Source of the DNA: Christensenellaceae bacterium | GTDB taxonomy: Bacteria; Bacillota; Clostridia; Christensenellales; CAG-138 | Assembly (NCBI GenBank): GCA_022510765.1 | Contig: JAFLSU010000016.1 | Span: 1-36,403 of the forward strand | DNA: 36,403 nucleotides | Reading direction: 5' to 3' | Shown: one piece after another, positions 6,221 through 14,823 of the stretch | Position numbering within the stretch: position 1 is the stretch's first letter | Layout of the letters: each line of letters opens with the position of its first letter | The notes under the pieces: generated by a model | The model's database searches: none | Told to the model about the DNA's origin: nothing | What the model saw: only the letters and a program-made list of their open reading frames with translations | Position numbers and translations under genes: made by a program

Positions 6221-7948
6221 TTAGGCTTCGGTATGTAATGCGCCGAAATGGCAGAGCTGCTGGCAGAGACCGCAGCCCACGCATTGAGTTGGGTCGACGG
6301 CAACGCCTGTTTCCGTCTTGCGGATCGCTGGGCAGCCAATCTTCATGCACATACCACAGTTTTTGCACTTCTCCGTATCGCAGACAAATGGAATGCCCGG
6401 CTGCTTGACGATGAGTGCGCAGGGACGGCGGGTGATGATTACGGAAAGACCATCGCGCTCGGTCTCTTCTCTAACGACCTGCTCAAGCTCTTTAATGTTG
6501 AACGGGTCGACTATGCGAACACTCGCAACGCCCATTGCTTCGCAAAGCTTGACGATATCGAGCTGTGTAGTGGGCTCACCATGTATATCAAGACCGTTGG
6601 CTGGGTTGTTCTGATGACCGGTCATGCCGGTGATGGAATTGTCCGCGATGATGACGGTACCTACCGCACGGTTATATGCCATGTTGAGTAATCCCGTTAT
6701 ACCGCTGTGACAGAAAGTCGAGTCACCAAGCACGGCAACCGTCTTCTTGGCCTGTTCCCTACCTCTGGCCTTCTCCATACCATGAGCCATTCCGATGGAA
6801 GCGCCCATACATACGCAGGTGTCAACACCGCTGAGAGGCGGCAGAGCACCGAGGGTGTAGCAGCCGATGTCGGAGCATACCGTCAACTTAAGCTTGCCAA
6901 GAACATAATACAGACCCCTGTGCGGGCAGCCGGGACAGAGAACCGGAGGACGCATGGGGATGCCGGGTGTATTCATGGGACCCGCTTCCTCGGCACCTTC
7001 GAATTTGGAAGCTATCTTACGAGCAAAGAGTTCGCCCTGAACACCGGTGCGATCCTTGCCGCTGCAAGCTATGCCCCAAGCCTTGATGGTATCTTCAAAG
7101 AACGGCTCCATATCCTCGATAACATAGAGGGTTTCGACCTCTTTTGCAAAATCTTCGATGAGCTTGCGCGGGAGAGGATAAACAAGACCAAGTTTGAGTA
7201 CGGATGCGGTGGGCATTGCTTCCTTGACATAGTTATAAGCGGCACCCGATGTGATAACGCCTACCTTTTTATCGGCCCATTCTATTTTGTTGATTGAAAG
7301 GGTGGAAGCATCCTCAGCAAGCCTTGTCTCACGCTCCTCAACGTATAGGTGACGACCTATCATGTTCGCAGGCATGGAAACGTATTTTTTAATATCTCTC
7401 GTATATTCACGAAGGGGCAGCTCCTCACGTTCACCGATTTCTACCAGCGTTCTTGCATGAGCAATACGAGTGGTCAGACGAACGATGACGGGAGTGTCAT
7501 ATTCTTCGCTGATCTCATATGCGACCTTAATAAAATCCTTACACTCCTGACTGCTGGAAGGATCAAGACATGGCGCATGAGACGCGCGTGCAAGAAGGCG
7601 GGTATCCTGCTCATTCTGAGAAGAATGCATACCTGGGTCATCTGCAACCACGAGAACCATACCCGCATTGACGCCTGTATATGTAGCGGTGAAAAACGGA
7701 TCGGCAGCAACATTAAGACCGACATGCTTCATGCAGGCAAGGCTGCGCGCGCCGCTGACCGCTGCGCCAAGTGCGACCTCAACTGCAACCTTTTCATTGG
7801 GCGCCCATTCGGAATAAATTTCCGGGTAGGTAGCAACGTTTTCGTTAATCTCGGTACTGGGCGTACCAGGGTATGCGCTGGATACCCTTACGCCTGCTTC
7901 GTAAGCACCTCTTGCAATGGCTTCATTGCCGAGCAACAGCTTTTTCAA
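6221..7948 (-). CDS. iorA: Indolepyruvate ferredoxin oxidoreductase, alpha subunit
   Basis: Large subunit carrying thiamine pyrophosphate and iron-sulfur clusters. The N-terminus MKKLLLGNEAIARGAYEAG matches the family. The TPP-binding half contains CPGCPHRG and a GDSTFCHSG ... ADNSITGMTG region. The C-terminus has two 4Fe-4S motifs: C528, C531, C534, C539 and C556, C559, C562, C566. The start is set at the TTG at 7948, eight bases after AAGGAGG, giving 575 residues. The longer frame from 7981 would place this ribosome site inside the gene. It is the first gene of the minus-strand run. The enzyme is oxygen-sensitive in known anaerobes, which fits a fermentative lifestyle. Confidence 0.95.
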   Translation of the reverse strand: MKKLLLGNEAIARGAYEAGVRVSSAYPGTPSTEINENVATYPEIYSEWAPNEKVAVEVALGAAVSGARSLACMKHVGLNVAADPFFTATYTGVNAGMVLVVADDPGMHSSQNEQDTRLLARASHAPCLDPSSSQECKDFIKVAYEISEEYDTPVIVRLTTRIAHARTLVEIGEREELPLREYTRDIKKYVSMPANMIGRHLYVEERETRLAEDASTLSINKIEWADKKVGVITSGAAYNYVKEAMPTASVLKLGLVYPLPRKLIEDFAKEVETLYVIEDMEPFFEDTIKAWGIACSGKDRTGVQGELFARKIASKFEGAEEAGPMNTPGIPMRPPVLCPGCPHRGLYYVLGKLKLTVCSDIGCYTLGALPPLSGVDTCVCMGASIGMAHGMEKARGREQAKKTVAVLGDSTFCHSGITGLLNMAYNRAVGTVIIADNSITGMTGHQNNPANGLDIHGEPTTQLDIVKLCEAMGVASVRIVDPFNIKELEQVVREETERDGLSVIITRRPCALIVKQPGIPFVCDTEKCKNCGMCMKIGCPAIRKTETGVAVDPTQCVGCGLCQQLCHFGALHTEA

Positions 7949-8011
7949 TTCAATTTCCTCCTTGGGATATGTTAAGAGCATGTATTGCCCTCACTCTATT
8001 CGGTTCCTTCT

Positions 8012-8926: not shown

Positions 8927-9097
8927 TTACAGTTTAAAATACGCGATAATATACATCGCAGAGGCGATCAACTGTAAGAAAAACAGTGCATAGCATATGC
9001 GTGTCCTTAGCTTATCCTCACGCTTTCGATAGATTTCAGCACCGAACAGCGGCACAGCCGGAATAAGACCGGCCCAAAGAACGAAAAGTATCGTCAT
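8927..9097 (-). CDS. Small two-helix membrane protein, unknown function
   Basis: A 56-residue peptide that I do not recognise. It has an N-terminal hydrophobic segment (ILFVLWAGLIPAVPLF), a short charged loop (EIYRKREDKLRTR), and a second hydrophobic segment to the C-terminus (ICYALFFLQLIASAMYIIAYF). This pattern is a helical hairpin with a positively charged loop. The ATG at 9097 has AGGTGAG three bases upstream. A TTGCGA/TATTAT promoter ends 35 bases before it, which supports this start over an in-frame extension to 9160. It lies alone between the ECF gene and the divergent DUF1538 gene. A holin-like, leader or accessory membrane role cannot be told apart. Confidence 0.6.
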   Translation of the reverse strand: MTILFVLWAGLIPAVPLFGAEIYRKREDKLRTRICYALFFLQLIASAMYIIAYFKL

Positions 9098-9131
9098 GTA
9101 CTCACCTCGCCTATCGGAATTCACTGCAGTC

Positions 9132-9160
9132 ATAATAATGGATTCTTTCATTATTCGCAA
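9132..9160 (-). promoter_or_regulatory. Promoter of the 56-residue membrane protein gene
   Basis: On the minus strand TTGCGA (9155-9160), 17 bases and TATTAT (9132-9137). The predicted RNA start near 9125 lies about 28 bases before the ATG at 9097. Confidence 0.6.
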
Positions 9161-9248: not shown

Positions 9249-9277
9249 TTGTTATGGCATCCTTTCTCTGTTATAAT
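9249..9277 (+). promoter_or_regulatory. Promoter of the DUF1538-PII operon
   Basis: TTGTTA (9249-9254), 17 bases, TATAAT (9272-9277). Transcription should begin near 9284, leaving a leader of about 50 bases that contains the hairpin at 9304-9324. Confidence 0.7.
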
Positions 9278-9303
9278 GATATTATTGGGTATAAATTGAG
9301 GTC

Positions 9304-9324
9304 GGGGCTGTTCCGCTAAGCCCC
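9304..9324 (+). promoter_or_regulatory. Stem-loop in the leader of the DUF1538 operon
   Basis: GGGGCT (9304-9309) and AGCCCC (9319-9324) form a 6-bp GC-rich stem around a 9-base loop. The stem ends three bases before the likely ribosome site GGTGAT (9327-9332). It could hinder or present the ribosome site. It matches no riboswitch I recognise. Confidence 0.45.
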
Positions 9325-9336
9325 ATGGTGATTAAC

Positions 9337-10917
9337 ATGCGCCATCAGCTGTTTGAAAAGCTAAAAGAATCTGTAGCTTCAGTTGTGCCGGTCACAGCAA
9401 TCGTTCTGTTGCTGCAATTCATCTCCCCTATGCCCTCGAACATGCTTGCTGCGTTTTTGATAGGTGCGGTATTGCTCATATTCGGCATGGGACTATTTTC
9501 GCTGGGAGCGGATATTTCAATGATGCCGATGGGCGAACGCATCGGTTCGCATATCATAAGGTCAAAGAAGTACAGCATACTTATCCCTGCGGTATTCTTT
9601 ATAGGCACGTTGATTACCGTTGCGGAACCCGATTTACAAGTGCTTGCCGATCAATTTGAGACTTTGAATCGCTGGGTCGTTGTTCTGACGGTTGCTGCCG
9701 GGGTCGGCGTGTTCCTTATGCTTGCGCTCATACGCGTATTAAAAGGGATAGAGCTTGTTCAAGTGCTGTTAGCTTTATATGTACTTGCTTTTGCCATTGC
9801 GGGAACGGCCGCCATAGATAACGGAACTATCATTCCTGTTGCGTTCGACTCAGGCGGCGTTACAACGGGGCCTATTACGGTTCCTTTCATCATTGCCCTT
9901 GGCATCGGATTCGCGACCGTCAGAGGCGGTAAAAATGCGCAGGATGACAGTTTCGGAATGGTCGCGCTTTGCTCGGTTGGGCCTATCCTTTCAATGCTCA
10001 TTCTTGGCCTTGCTACAGGCGTTGATAAGGTGTCGAGCGGTGCAAACGCCCTTCCCGATTATTCCAACTTTATTGATGTTTTGCGCGTCTTCGGGTCGGG
10101 AATTCCTACATATGTCCGTGAGGTTGCGCTTGCACTGCTGCCAATAATTGCGCTCTTTCTTGTGTTTCAGTTCCTGCTCCTGCACCTTCCCGGCAAAACT
10201 TTGGCAAGGCTCGGTGTCGGTCTTATCTATACGTTTGTAGGTCTTGTGCTGTTTCTGGTCGGAGTAAGCGTAGGATTCATGCCGGCAGGCACCTTCTTCG
10301 GGAACGCCCTTGGAAGCACCAGCATGCCGTGGATCCTTGTTCCGATAGGCATGTTGCTTGGCTTCTTTGTAGTAATGGCTGAGCCTGCGGTGCGCGTGGT
10401 CAACAAGCAGGTCGAAGAGATTACCGTCGGAGCGATTTCCGGAAAGGCGATGCTCCTGAGCCTCTCGATCGGTGTTGCCATTTCCGTGGGACTCTCAATG
10501 CTGCGTGTTGTAACAGGCATTTCGCTTTGGTATTTTCTTATCCCGGGATATGCGCTTGCGATAGAGCTTTCGTTCTTTGCACCGAAGATCTTCACCGTTA
10601 TTGCTTTTGACTCCGGCGGCGTTGCGTCAGGTCCCATGACGGCAACGTTCATGCTTCCGTTCGCGATGGGTGCCTGTCAGGCACTCGGCGGCAATGTGAC
10701 CACCGATGCCTTCGGCCTTGTTGCGCTCGTCGCTTTGACTCCGCTTATCACGATTCAGATTCTTGGCGTAGTGTACAAGATAAAGCTGGTGAGCGTGGAA
10801 CGGGCAAATCTGCGCTCGGAGGCAATCGAAGTAAAGAATTCCAGTTTGCCCATTTCAGGCGCATTGGCTGTTGATGCAGCGGTAACGATCGTCGAATTCG
10901 AATTGGAGGACATCTGA
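9337..10917 (+). CDS. DUF1538 family membrane protein (two repeats), putative transporter
   Basis: A polytopic membrane protein of 526 residues made of two homologous halves. Each half holds the signature FDSGGVxxGPxT, at about residues 170 and 424, so the repeat period is close to 254 residues. Each half also begins with a KxxxxxxVxPV-like hydrophobic lead and a GADISMMPMGE or AEPAVRVV type loop. This is the DUF1538 layout; its substrate is not established to my knowledge. The start is set at ATG 9337, with GGTGAT four bases upstream. ATG 9325 has no ribosome site. Two PII-like genes follow at once, so its activity is probably controlled by a PII protein (inference from context). The internal duplication resembles transporters built from inverted repeats. 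Confidence 0.88.
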   Translation: MRHQLFEKLKESVASVVPVTAIVLLLQFISPMPSNMLAAFLIGAVLLIFGMGLFSLGADISMMPMGERIGSHIIRSKKYSILIPAVFFIGTLITVAEPDLQVLADQFETLNRWVVVLTVAAGVGVFLMLALIRVLKGIELVQVLLALYVLAFAIAGTAAIDNGTIIPVAFDSGGVTTGPITVPFIIALGIGFATVRGGKNAQDDSFGMVALCSVGPILSMLILGLATGVDKVSSGANALPDYSNFIDVLRVFGSGIPTYVREVALALLPIIALFLVFQFLLLHLPGKTLARLGVGLIYTFVGLVLFLVGVSVGFMPAGTFFGNALGSTSMPWILVPIGMLLGFFVVMAEPAVRVVNKQVEEITVGAISGKAMLLSLSIGVAISVGLSMLRVVTGISLWYFLIPGYALAIELSFFAPKIFTVIAFDSGGVASGPMTATFMLPFAMGACQALGGNVTTDAFGLVALVALTPLITIQILGVVYKIKLVSVERANLRSEAIEVKNSSLPISGALAVDAAVTIVEFELEDI

Positions 10918-10918
10918 T

Positions 10919-11311
10919 ATGAGTGAGCAAATCTTCGAGCCAATAACTATGATATTCTGCATCGTAAACAGGGGCTCCGGCAAGATCGTAACGGAGCTTT
11001 GCACAAAGGAAGGACTTTCATGCCATCTGCTCATGCGTGGACGAGGCACCGCCGATAACGCGACGCTAGCCATGCTCGGCTTTGGTGAGCGCGAAAAGGA
11101 TATTATTCTTTTGTCCGTTGCAAATTCACGCAAGCAGGAACTGATGGATAAGATAGCCGCTGCCGCGCATTTGAACGAGCCGGGACGTGGCATCGCCTTT
11201 TCTGTGCCGTTTTCAAGCATCGCGTTTCAGATGAATTCCTATGATATGCTTGCAGGTAAAAAGGTTGAAACAGAAAAAACCGAAATGATTGAGGGAGCTA
11301 AGCATGATTAA
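10919..11311 (+). CDS. PII-like nitrogen-regulator family protein (first of pair)
   Basis: A 130-residue protein of the PII (GlnB-like) fold. GRGT (residues 41-44) precedes the T-loop region, and a B-loop-like NEPGRGIAFSVP lies at about 86-97. The T-loop is shorter than in GlnB and has no tyrosine at the place of the uridylylated Tyr51. The lysine of the usual GxGKIF is replaced (GRGIAF). Canonical uridylylation and ATP contacts may therefore differ. A C-terminal tail of about 30 residues (KKVETEKTEMIEG) is extra. The ATG is one base after the DUF1538 stop; GGAGGA lies eight bases upstream, inside the DUF1538 gene. The next PII-like gene starts inside this one. Confidence 0.85.
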   Translation: MSEQIFEPITMIFCIVNRGSGKIVTELCTKEGLSCHLLMRGRGTADNATLAMLGFGEREKDIILLSVANSRKQELMDKIAAAAHLNEPGRGIAFSVPFSSIAFQMNSYDMLAGKKVETEKTEMIEGAKHD

Positions 11312-11648
11312 GTACGACCTAATTATCATAATTGTAAATAGGGGTTTTGCGGATGAGGTTATGACGGCCGCAAAATCCGCAGGCGCGTTCGGCGGAACGG
11401 TTATGAACGCAAGGGGAACCGGAACTAACGAACAGCAGAAGTTTTTCGGCGCACTTATCCAGCCCGAAAAGGAATTGGTGATGATCTTGACAGAACGGGA
11501 AAAGCGCAATGCCATGATGGAAGCGATCAGCAGGGATGCGGGGCTTTCAAAGGAGGGTATGGGCATCTGCTTCTCGCTGCCTGTCGATGGGGTCGCCGGC
11601 ATACGCTCTTTCAGAGAAAAGGAAACCAATGAAATAAGCAAGCAGTAA
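11304..11648 (+). CDS. PII-like nitrogen-regulator family protein (second of pair)
   Basis: A 114-residue PII-family protein. NARGTG (35-40), QPEKELVMIL (53-62) and the B-loop-like SKEGMGICFSLPVDG (82-96) are readable landmarks. The T-loop is short (TNEQQKFFGAL) and has no Tyr51 equivalent, as in its neighbour. ATG 11304 is chosen because GAGGGAG lies six bases upstream; a TTG at 11289 would put this site inside the gene. The start overlaps the first PII gene by 8 bases, so the two are probably made in fixed ratio and could form a mixed trimer. A strong terminator follows. The two paralogues differ clearly in sequence, so this is not a recent duplication. Confidence 0.88.
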   Translation: MIKYDLIIIIVNRGFADEVMTAAKSAGAFGGTVMNARGTGTNEQQKFFGALIQPEKELVMILTEREKRNAMMEAISRDAGLSKEGMGICFSLPVDGVAGIRSFREKETNEISKQ

Positions 11649-11689
11649 GCTGCGATTTCGTTAAATATGTGTTGACATCCATTGCTAAT

Positions 11690-11740
11690 ACGCCCATTTC
11701 CTCGAGTTAAAGATTTCAAAGTGCGGAAATGGGCGTTTTA
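11690..11740 (+). terminator. Terminator of the DUF1538-PII operon
   Basis: A perfect 12-bp stem (ACGCCCATTTCC at 11690-11701 with its complement at 11725-11736) is followed by TTTATACTGTTT. The loop is 23 bases, and the stem is GC-rich at its base. Confidence 0.85.
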
Positions 11741-11821
11741 TACTGTTTCATAAATCAACTGTAACAATACTGCCTTTAAGCGTGTTAGATTAACTCGTTA
11801 TCAAATTTCGATAAAAAACTA

Positions 11822-11850
11822 TTGACAATCAACAACCAACCTGTTATCAT
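11822..11850 (+). promoter_or_regulatory. Promoter of the DUF4173-type gene
   Basis: TTGACA (11822-11827), 17 bases, TATCAT (11845-11850): a consensus -35 with a good -10. The gene starts at 11902, so the leader is about 45 bases. Confidence 0.8.
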
Positions 11851-11901
11851 TACAATCATGCAATGAATACGTCGGTATCTACTATTCCTTTGGAGGTTAG
11901 T

Positions 11902-13248
11902 ATGGAACAATTTAGTACAAATCAAGGCGATCGGCTGCCAAATGGTGCTGCTATGAATGATGCGTCCATCGAGAATGGCGTTTTGATACAAACGCGATCC
12001 ATGATACACAAAGAAAACTTGCTGCTTCTTGGAGCAGCGGTGGTCGCGATACTTTTCGATCGTTACATCACAAATGGTTTGGAGTGCTGGCTCTACTGCG
12101 CTTTCTTCGCAGTATTTACTGCAGTTATGCTAATCCTCAACCGCAGCTCGCTCAAGGAAAGCAAAGAAATATTATTCATTGTCGGTGCTGTTGTCGTTTT
12201 GATGATAAATCTCACCGTGGATTATTACAGAGGTGATCGTAATTCCTTTGATATAACGCTGGCGATGTTAAACACTCTCTTTGCTATACCGGCATTGCTG
12301 ATGTCAATTCCCGCCATCCTCACCTACGGGCTTTCTGCAAACGCTGTAGGTCGTTTTGCAAAATCCTACTTGACGACTGCATTCGTAAATACTTTCAGGT
12401 TTTTCGGAAAGCCATTCGGTGCGCTTATAAGAGTGTTCCACGGCAGGGACAAAGGCATCAAGCACGTTGCCCTCGGACTCACCATCGGAGTGCCTATCTT
12501 CATAATCCTGATAATGCTGCTTTCTTCGGCGGACGCGGTAATGAAGATCAGCATTGAAAGCATCTTCGACTTTGACGAGGATTGGTTTGGCAGGCTGCTT
12601 CTTCATCTGCTGTTCCTGATCCTGCCGATGTTCCTTATCTCTTATTCACTGATCTACTCCGTAATGAATAAACGTGATATTGGATTTACGACCGGACAAA
12701 CGAACATAAGGTTTAATGACACTAGTGCGGCAATTATAATGAGCTGCATGCTTATTGCGTATGCAATTTTCGCCGGCTTTCAGTTCACATATTTTACAGG
12801 GCTTCATGGTCTTCCGGAGGGCTTGACCTATTCCGAATATGCCGTAAACGGCTTTTCGGAGCTTAATGTAGTTACCATAATCAATATGTCCGTATTTGCA
12901 TTGGTGCTAACGTTCTGCAAGAACGGCTCCACCGGTATCAACAATCCGATAAAAGGACTTTTGATCGCTTTGCTTGCTTCCACAATGCTTCTTCTTGTTT
13001 CCGCAATGGCAAGGCTGATCATGTATATCGATGCATATGGACTCACCACCAAACGCGTGCTCGCATTTTGGCTTGAAATCGCAACATTTATCGTACTCAT
13101 TTTCGGAACAATAAAGCTGTTCAAACCGAAATTTCGAGCTGCATATTGGACAGCGGCAGCAATCATACTGTGGTATCTTGTGCTGAACATCGTGAACTGC
13201 GGCGCATTGATCGAAAAAAGTGCGTTAGTCTTGAACTGTCTACCGTAA
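11902..13248 (+). CDS. DUF4153/DUF4173-type multi-pass membrane protein
   Basis: A 448-residue integral membrane protein with roughly ten hydrophobic segments after a polar N-terminus of about 40 residues. The segment YSEYAVNGFSELNVVTIINM resembles the conserved YARxGFxxLxxVxxINL signature of the DUF4153/DUF4173 group. These proteins have no settled function; some are encoded near envelope or sensor genes. ATG 11902 is behind GGAGG with six bases between; a start at 11863 has no ribosome site. It stands alone, with its own promoter and a terminator at 13295-13320, and is convergent with spoIVA. No catalytic motif is seen. Confidence 0.72.
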   Translation: MEQFSTNQGDRLPNGAAMNDASIENGVLIQTRSMIHKENLLLLGAAVVAILFDRYITNGLECWLYCAFFAVFTAVMLILNRSSLKESKEILFIVGAVVVLMINLTVDYYRGDRNSFDITLAMLNTLFAIPALLMSIPAILTYGLSANAVGRFAKSYLTTAFVNTFRFFGKPFGALIRVFHGRDKGIKHVALGLTIGVPIFIILIMLLSSADAVMKISIESIFDFDEDWFGRLLLHLLFLILPMFLISYSLIYSVMNKRDIGFTTGQTNIRFNDTSAAIIMSCMLIAYAIFAGFQFTYFTGLHGLPEGLTYSEYAVNGFSELNVVTIINMSVFALVLTFCKNGSTGINNPIKGLLIALLASTMLLLVSAMARLIMYIDAYGLTTKRVLAFWLEIATFIVLIFGTIKLFKPKFRAAYWTAAAIILWYLVLNIVNCGALIEKSALVLNCLP

Positions 13249-13341: not shown

Positions 13342-14823
13342 TTACAGCATTATGCATATCAGACCATTGCAGCCCTCGTTGACCATCCTTGTGACGGCAT
13401 CGCGAAGCTTTAACTGAACATCTACAGGCAGCCTTGCGACCTTTCCCGCCATGCCCTCCTTTACGAGATCGTAGAGGGATTTACCGAAAATATCTGTTTG
13501 CCAAATTTCATCCGGACTGTGCTCGAATTTATCCATCAGATAATTGATAAGCTGCTCACTCTGTTCGGCGGTGCCGACAAGCGGATTTACCTCGCTCTCG
13601 ATATCAACGCGGATAATGTGCAGCCCTGATGCCCTCGCTTTAAGACGCACGCCGAACCTCCCGCCATGCTGGACGATCTCGGGACTATCGAGCTGCATCT
13701 CGTCTATGGCGGGCGGTACAAGTCCATAGCCCGTCTCCTCGGCCGCAGTCAATGCGTGAGCGATCCTATCGTAAGCACGTTTCGCCTTGACAAAATCCTT
13801 GAGTGATGCGATCAATTCCGCCTCGTTGGCAATATTGTACTCGCACTCCTCGCTGAGGATTCGATAGAACACATCATCGTTTGGGAGCAGCCGGTAAACC
13901 GCGCTGCCCGTACCGAGGCTGATGCGAAGCTGTTCAATGGGCTGAAAATCCTCGCACTGAGCATATGCTTCTCCGAGCAGAGCATAGTCGCGCATTTTGC
14001 TAAGCGCAGGCATGATGCGAGCCGCACGCTCGAGCAGTCCCTTTACAAGCGGATGCTCTACCCCGAGTGCCTTTATCCAATTTGGAAGCTCGATACTCAC
14101 AGTTTGCAGCGGGAATTCAAGCAGTATTCTCTCGAGCATAGAATGGATATCTTCAATGCTCATATCCATAACATCAAGCGCAGTGACGGGCGTATGGTAT
14201 TTTTCGGAAAGCTCGTTTGCGAGCGCAATGCTGTCCGGATCGGTTGGATTGATGGTGTTGAGTATGATGATATAGGGCTTACCCGTATTGTTAAGCTCCG
14301 AAATGACGCGTTCTTCGGCCTCCGCATAATCGCTGCGGGCAATTCCTGTGATGCTTCCATCCGTCATGATGACAACGCCGATCGTTGAATGCTCGGTTAT
14401 CACCTTCTGCGTTCCAATTTCAGCAGCTTCATCGAACGGAATATCATAATCATACCAAGGGGTGCGCACCATGCGCGGAAGCTCTCCCTCGGTATTGCCA
14501 AGCGCGCCGTTTACCATATAGCCAACGCAGTCGACCATTCGCACACGCAGTTCGATATTATCATCTCCGATATTCAACTCGACCGCCTCATTCGGAACGA
14601 ATTTGGGCTGAGTGGTCATTACGGTCTTGCCTGAGCCGCTTTGAGGAAGCTCATCGACTATTCGTTCGCGCGCAAACTCGTTCTCGATTTTCGGCAGAAC
14701 CATCAGATCCATGAACCGCTTGATAAAGGTGGATTTGCCGGTTCGCACGGGGCCTACGACGCCTATATAAATATCACCGCCCGTGCGCTCCTGAATATCA
14801 CGATAAATGCTTGTATTTGCCAT
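13342..14823 (-). CDS. spoIVA: Stage IV sporulation protein A, spore coat ATPase
   Basis: SpoIVA is made in the mother cell, binds the outer forespore membrane through SpoVM, and polymerises by ATP hydrolysis to form the base of the spore coat. The 493 residues match the family. The N-terminus MANTSIYRDIQERTGGDIYI is typical, followed by the Walker A motif GPVRTGKS at 24-31 and, near residue 200, IILNTINPTD, a nucleotide-specificity region. The ATG at 14823 lies behind GGAGG with seven bases between. A sigma-E-like promoter is just upstream. The gene is a single unit, separated from der by a terminator. Its presence marks the host as an endospore former. Confidence 0.98.
   Translation of the reverse strand: MANTSIYRDIQERTGGDIYIGVVGPVRTGKSTFIKRFMDLMVLPKIENEFARERIVDELPQSGSGKTVMTTQPKFVPNEAVELNIGDDNIELRVRMVDCVGYMVNGALGNTEGELPRMVRTPWYDYDIPFDEAAEIGTQKVITEHSTIGVVIMTDGSITGIARSDYAEAEERVISELNNTGKPYIIILNTINPTDPDSIALANELSEKYHTPVTALDVMDMSIEDIHSMLERILLEFPLQTVSIELPNWIKALGVEHPLVKGLLERAARIMPALSKMRDYALLGEAYAQCEDFQPIEQLRISLGTGSAVYRLLPNDDVFYRILSEECEYNIANEAELIASLKDFVKAKRAYDRIAHALTAAEETGYGLVPPAIDEMQLDSPEIVQHGGRFGVRLKARASGLHIIRVDIESEVNPLVGTAEQSEQLINYLMDKFEHSPDEIWQTDIFGKSLYDLVKEGMAGKVARLPVDVQLKLRDAVTRMVNEGCNGLICIML

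Follow-up and report, generated by a model that had tools for sequence, protein, structure and literature searches.

What do two PII-like proteins, belonging to a family whose members are the archetypal carbon/nitrogen switches, do in an operon with a membrane protein of the DUF1538 family? The window (the whole stretch of DNA analysed, 36,403 nucleotides from a Christensenellaceae bacterium) contains such an operon, and the reading that we favour, and consider probable, is that DUF1538, PII1 and PII2 form a self-contained transporter-regulator operon, in which a putative monovalent-cation/H+ antiporter would be gated by dedicated, non-canonical PII-like proteins; binding and gating are proposed by analogy with known PII systems, and the substrate by homology to the UmpAB antiporter.

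Operon organisation and gene identity

The ORF list of the window places three genes on the + strand, DUF1538 (9337..10917), PII1 (10919..11311) and PII2 (11304..11648), with spacings of +1 bp and −8 bp. The first encodes a fused two-domain membrane transporter which matches PF07556 over two stretches (444 bits, E 5.8e-134, above the curated cut-off); its ORF can be extended to an ATG at 9325, a start which was rejected in favour of the ATG at 9337 after alignment with relatives. PII2 matches PF00543 (38.7 bits, cut-off 25), and its start was corrected from a TTG at 11289 to the ATG at 11304, which overlaps the end of PII1 by 8 bp. PII1 is a degenerate PII-like protein with no Pfam hit, which was recognised by a profile of DUF1538-linked PII proteins (A3; 58.5 bits, E 9.1e-16, at 10946-11224). 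By lineage, PII1 and PII2 correspond to the N-terminal and C-terminal domain, respectively, of tandem PII proteins. With these profile matches and the tight same-strand spacing, the initial annotation of a DUF1538 gene and two PII-like genes in one operon is confirmed.

That annotation had also described a closed unit bounded by a promoter, a leader hairpin and a terminator, of which the terminator held up, the promoter did so as a promoter-like site, and the hairpin was not supported. The promoter-like site is of σ70 type (9249..9277, +; TTGTTA-17-TATAAT with a TG before the −10 box, 10/12 matches), in a region where such sites occur at about the number expected by chance, and the intrinsic terminator (11690..11736, +) has a 12-bp stem followed by a T run, with none of 200 shuffles equally stable (z = −4.0). 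The inverted repeat GGGGCT/AGCCCC just 5′ of the first ATG (9304..9324, +) is real, but with a z of +0.5 versus shuffles and no Rfam family matched within the window it was discarded as a regulatory element.

With regard to the flanking genes, an ECF transporter substrate-specific (S) component gene (PF12822, 8163-8774) and a 77-aa ORF with two hydrophobic stretches and no Pfam match (8927-9160, −) lie upstream of the operon, the latter just next to it, and a thiamine-pyrophosphate ferredoxin oxidoreductase-like protein with 4Fe-4S domains (POR_N, TPP_enzyme_C) is encoded at 6221-7981 (−). On the other side, a strong σ70-type site (TTGACA-17-TATCAT, 11/12, 11822-11850) is found just before a DUF4153 gene (11863-13248), and the SpoIVA gene at 13342-14823 (−) places the organism in a spore-forming lineage.

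The DUF1538 transporter and its probable substrate

No solved structures related to DUF1538 by sequence were found, and the protein was modelled with AlphaFold2 using 66 relatives (pLDDT 91.2, pTM 0.89). The model has two similar helical halves, with the first DUF1538 domain (9394..10011, +) predicted to be N-in/C-out and the second (10144..10773, +) predicted to be inverted, N-out/C-in, and the protein most likely reads as a secondary transporter of 7+7 TM with an internal inversion. The most conserved stretches coincide with breaks in the modelled helices: these are near AEPDL in the first domain (residues 100-104; 9622..9636, +) and AEPA in the second (residues 352-355; 10378..10389, +), just after FDSGGVTTG in the first (residues 174-182, break at 180-184; 9844..9870, +) and within FDSGGVASG in the second (residues 428-436, break at 435-436; 10606..10632, +). 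Comparison of the model with PDB folds gave no match at E ≤ 0.001, the best (VIA Z 4.9, Pho90/DASS) being not significant; this is not taken as a sign of a new fold.

Lysine and arginine residues were counted in the loops as placed by the AlphaFold2 model, and the K/R bias was nearly balanced in single-gene DUF1538 proteins (+1.3), but opposite in paired genes (first +4.2, second −4.8) and in fused halves (F1 +7.8, F2 −5.7). Because of this near-neutral single form and the opposite bias of the paired and fused halves, we suggest that DUF1538 may have originated as a dual-topology 7-TM homodimer which was later duplicated and fused, as described for the DUF606, SMR and Fluc families (PMC3962082, PMC9574504, PMC3755343). 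Like DUF606, SMR/EmrE and Fluc, DUF1538 comes as a single gene, as a gene pair or as a fusion, the two halves being oppositely biased in charge, whereas it differs from them in having 7 TM per unit and in being accompanied by PII proteins.

The initial annotation regarded the transporter as uncharacterised, which does not wholly hold for the family: in the DUF1538 pair UmpAB of Halomonas zhaodongensis, both subunits are needed for Na+(Li+,K+)/H+ antiport in E. coli KNabc, and both contain highly conserved acidic residues (PMC5484666). The window protein shares with UmpAB the Pfam domain, two DUF1538 units and conserved acidic residues, but it is encoded by one fused gene instead of two, and its scores fall far short of the cut-offs for the UmpA/UmpB equivalogs (NF041627 157.5 vs 490 bits, NF041628 150.5 vs 500 bits). 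Judged by these sequence scores it is a distant relative of the UmpA and UmpB subunits, and its substrate, assigned by homology, may therefore differ from that of UmpAB. An alternative reading, possible but clearly less likely than the cation/H+ antiporter, is that the PII proteins gate the transporter while its substrate is another solute (an organic anion, metal or nutrient), the fused clostridial DUF1538 proteins having diverged from UmpAB. The low equivalog scores speak for it, as do the testing of one DUF1538 pair only (UmpAB) for transport and the weak, not significant resemblance of one repeat to the anion/Na+ DASS transporters mentioned above, but the acidic motifs AEP and FDSGG are common to single, paired and fused forms, and the acidic residues of UmpA/UmpB are conserved as well.

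Association of DUF1538 with non-canonical PII proteins

About 220 DUF1538 loci were annotated, of which 217 non-redundant loci from Clostridia, other Bacillota, Spirochaetes and two Alphaproteobacteria were tallied. PII-like genes are adjacent in 213 of the 217, the other four being cut at contig ends, and three loci beyond this tally all have an adjacent PII gene as well. Both genes are on the same strand in all 197 measured loci, with a median gap of −4 bp and 187 of them ≤60 bp apart, while no other conserved neighbours were found at DUF1538 loci beyond common transporter and kinase families. DUF1538 is present in 102/291 sampled Clostridia genomes and in 84/249 genomes of a second Bacillota draw, and is above the family cut-off in 26/149 genomes from the same phylum as the spirochaete Breznakiella; the evidence for Proteobacteria consists of two plasmid loci (Methylocystis, Chelativorans). 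Using a threshold of E ≤ 1e-12 and a comparison of the two genome lists by hand, matches to the profile of DUF1538-linked PII proteins were found in 97/102 Clostridia genomes with DUF1538 versus 2/189 without (Fisher p ~3e-68), the five exceptions being two loci at a contig end, two genomes with DUF1538 fragments only and one weak PII match. Counting against the favoured reading, orphan tandem PII genes were seen at two clostridial loci in genomes with no DUF1538 match, one (L308, 3821-4474) close to genes for a molybdate-type ABC transporter and cobalamin, the other (L309, 4230-4943) close to rubrerythrin-like and ClpX genes.

The association takes several forms. A single DUF1538 domain occurs with one PII (12 loci, and one more besides). 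The umpA-umpB pair is accompanied by one PII (including the Methylocystis and Chelativorans plasmids and Breznakiella), by two separate PII genes or by a tandem PII. Fused DUF1538 occurs with a tandem PII in 141 loci and with two PII genes in 15, including the window; in 8 loci (L034-L041) it bears a third PII at the C-terminus, and a tandem-PII gene was seen upstream in 6 of these. In the Spirochaetes loci L310-L315, a long-loop fused DUF1538 is followed by a protein of 364-392 aa with up to three PII domains. The fused DUF1538 proteins of these loci and of L322, where a protein with several PII domains likewise follows, have long inserts (~500-735 aa), and L310 contains two such units back to back. 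Viral contigs screened for natural DUF1538-PII fusions contained none. A phylogeny of PII copies, with poorly supported deep nodes, hints that PII may have doubled more than once. The initial annotation had set a survey of DUF1538 neighbourhoods beforehand as a test that could refute its core idea, that the PII proteins act on the membrane protein; adjacency in 213/217 loci leaves the idea standing, and together with the co-occurrence and the eight fusions gives it strong support.

The PII strand and helix order (beta-alpha-beta-beta-alpha-beta) was found in both modelled halves of the tandem PII of a relative (L121, pLDDT 85.8); its second half matches GlnK1 (Foldseek 4e-6), and PII, SbtB and CutA structures with Z up to 10.5. 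The residues Lys90 in the B-loop and Arg101 and Arg103 in the C-loop of GlnB/GlnK, which we take to be the ATP-phosphate contacts, are mostly missing from the aligned DUF1538-linked PII proteins: the canonical GDGK of the B-loop is PGxGI with a nearly invariant Ile at the Lys90 position, the Arg101 position is an invariant Gly, and the Arg103 position is not Arg in most, although window PII2 retains an Arg near it. The base of the T-loop (GRGTG.HE) and the B-loop glycines are kept. Neither PII1 nor PII2 has a Tyr in the T-loop region, where the Tyr51 uridylylation site would be, or the C-terminal CGPxGC redox loop found in some SbtB proteins. Given the replacement of the ATP-phosphate residues, classical sensing of ATP/ADP/2-oxoglutarate is improbable, and the nucleotide sensing put forward in the initial annotation is not implied. 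PII2 is the only Pfam P-II match in the window genome (95.6% complete), which has no match to an Amt transporter (PF00909) while all 14 controls gave a match, so that PII1 and PII2 are not regulators of Amt. The genome does contain a diadenylate cyclase, making c-di-AMP, bound by the PstA/DarA receptors, a possible ligand.

The loss of the canonical nucleotide-binding residues and the degenerate PII1, together with the universal linkage and the fusions, could also be explained if the PII proteins were obligate structural or assembly subunits and not ligand-responsive gates. We consider this improbable, as the conserved T-loop base and B-loop glycines are what is expected of a moving or binding loop, and UmpAB shows activity in E. 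coli from a construct for which no PII is reported; basal activity thus apparently does not require PII, which more likely modulates than enables transport. A much less likely arrangement still is that the transporter is the sensor, sequestering PII at the membrane depending on the ion state, while free PII controls other targets. It has a precedent in the reversible membrane association of GlnK with AmtB (PMC3831643, PMC4274968), but no other conserved partner gene is found nearby, and the fusion in eight loci would block release of that PII. That the adjacency is coincidental or mere local synteny has nothing in its favour and can be dismissed, being refuted by the co-occurrence and the 213/217 adjacency, with linkage in three phyla, at least six gene architectures and fusions.

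A proposed ion exchanger under PII control

In the favoured reading, the DUF1538 protein would be a UmpAB-like secondary transporter with 7+7 TM, which most likely exchanges monovalent cations (Na+/Li+/K+) for H+, and PII1 and PII2 would form a PII-type trimeric assembly, probably a hetero-trimer. By analogy with GlnK-AmtB and SbtB-SbtA, this assembly may dock on the cytoplasmic face of DUF1538, with the T-loops blocking or adjusting transport, so that an intracellular signal would make PII adjust or shut transport; candidates for the signal are pH, the transported cation itself, a metal ion or some other small ligand. In the clade of the window, the C-terminal tail of DUF1538 (10840..10914, +; predicted to be cytoplasmic, and disordered in the AlphaFold2 model) may help to tether the PII proteins, whereas in another clade the tether would be covalent, since a third PII is there part of the transporter chain. 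Many fused DUF1538 proteins without a PII fusion have an acidic-hydrophobic tail of the DDxIIEL type or a variant of it at their end, and that of the window, ending in TIVEFELEDI, is a divergent form which matches the loose pattern only. The loose pattern is found in 102/160 tails versus 9.6 expected from shuffled tails, and the strict pattern in 73/160 versus 1.0, counts which are read as sequence conservation inside one clade and not as repeated origin because the related sequences are not independent. Docking of PII by this tail is a guess, which fits with the PII domain being fused at the same end in the other clade.

The proposed system has partial counterparts among known PII partners. 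As with GlnK-AmtB, a PII-type protein is encoded beside the membrane protein that it presumably gates, but here there is no Amt in the genome, the canonical ATP residues are missing, the partner is DUF1538, and the relatives have tandem, triple and fused PII. SbtB-SbtA (PMC8352866) is similar in combining a dedicated PII-like protein in an operon with an inverted-repeat secondary transporter and in its non-nitrogen role; SbtA however has 5+5 TM, and SbtB is a binder of adenyl nucleotides with a redox loop at its C-terminus, whereas the window system is modelled with 7+7 TM and has no such loop. PII-NG is also a PII variant clustered with a proton/cation antiporter, although its partner is the RND efflux pump CzcABC and not DUF1538 (PMC7726332). 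A bolder view, which we put forward tentatively, is that of a new PII signalling class which has dropped nucleotide sensing, and in which a mixed pseudo-trimer (of PII1/PII2, tandem, triple or fused PII, two lineages having three PII domains for each DUF1538 pair) would respond to ion state, pH or a new ligand by directly gating a cation/H+ antiporter derived from a dual-topology ancestor.

Among the open-access papers searched, DUF1538 is mentioned in five, and the only one on the family itself does not mention PII (PMC5484666); with subscription journals mostly uncovered an earlier description is possible. The combination of an UmpAB-type DUF1538 with dedicated PII proteins points to a widespread, undescribed switch which would turn an ion exchanger up or down, and the compact natural DUF1538-PII fusions would provide material for structure work. 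If true, ion and pH homeostasis would come under PII control in many gut and environmental anaerobes, and hundreds of genes that bear no annotation beyond "P-II family nitrogen regulator" or "DUF1538" would gain a function.
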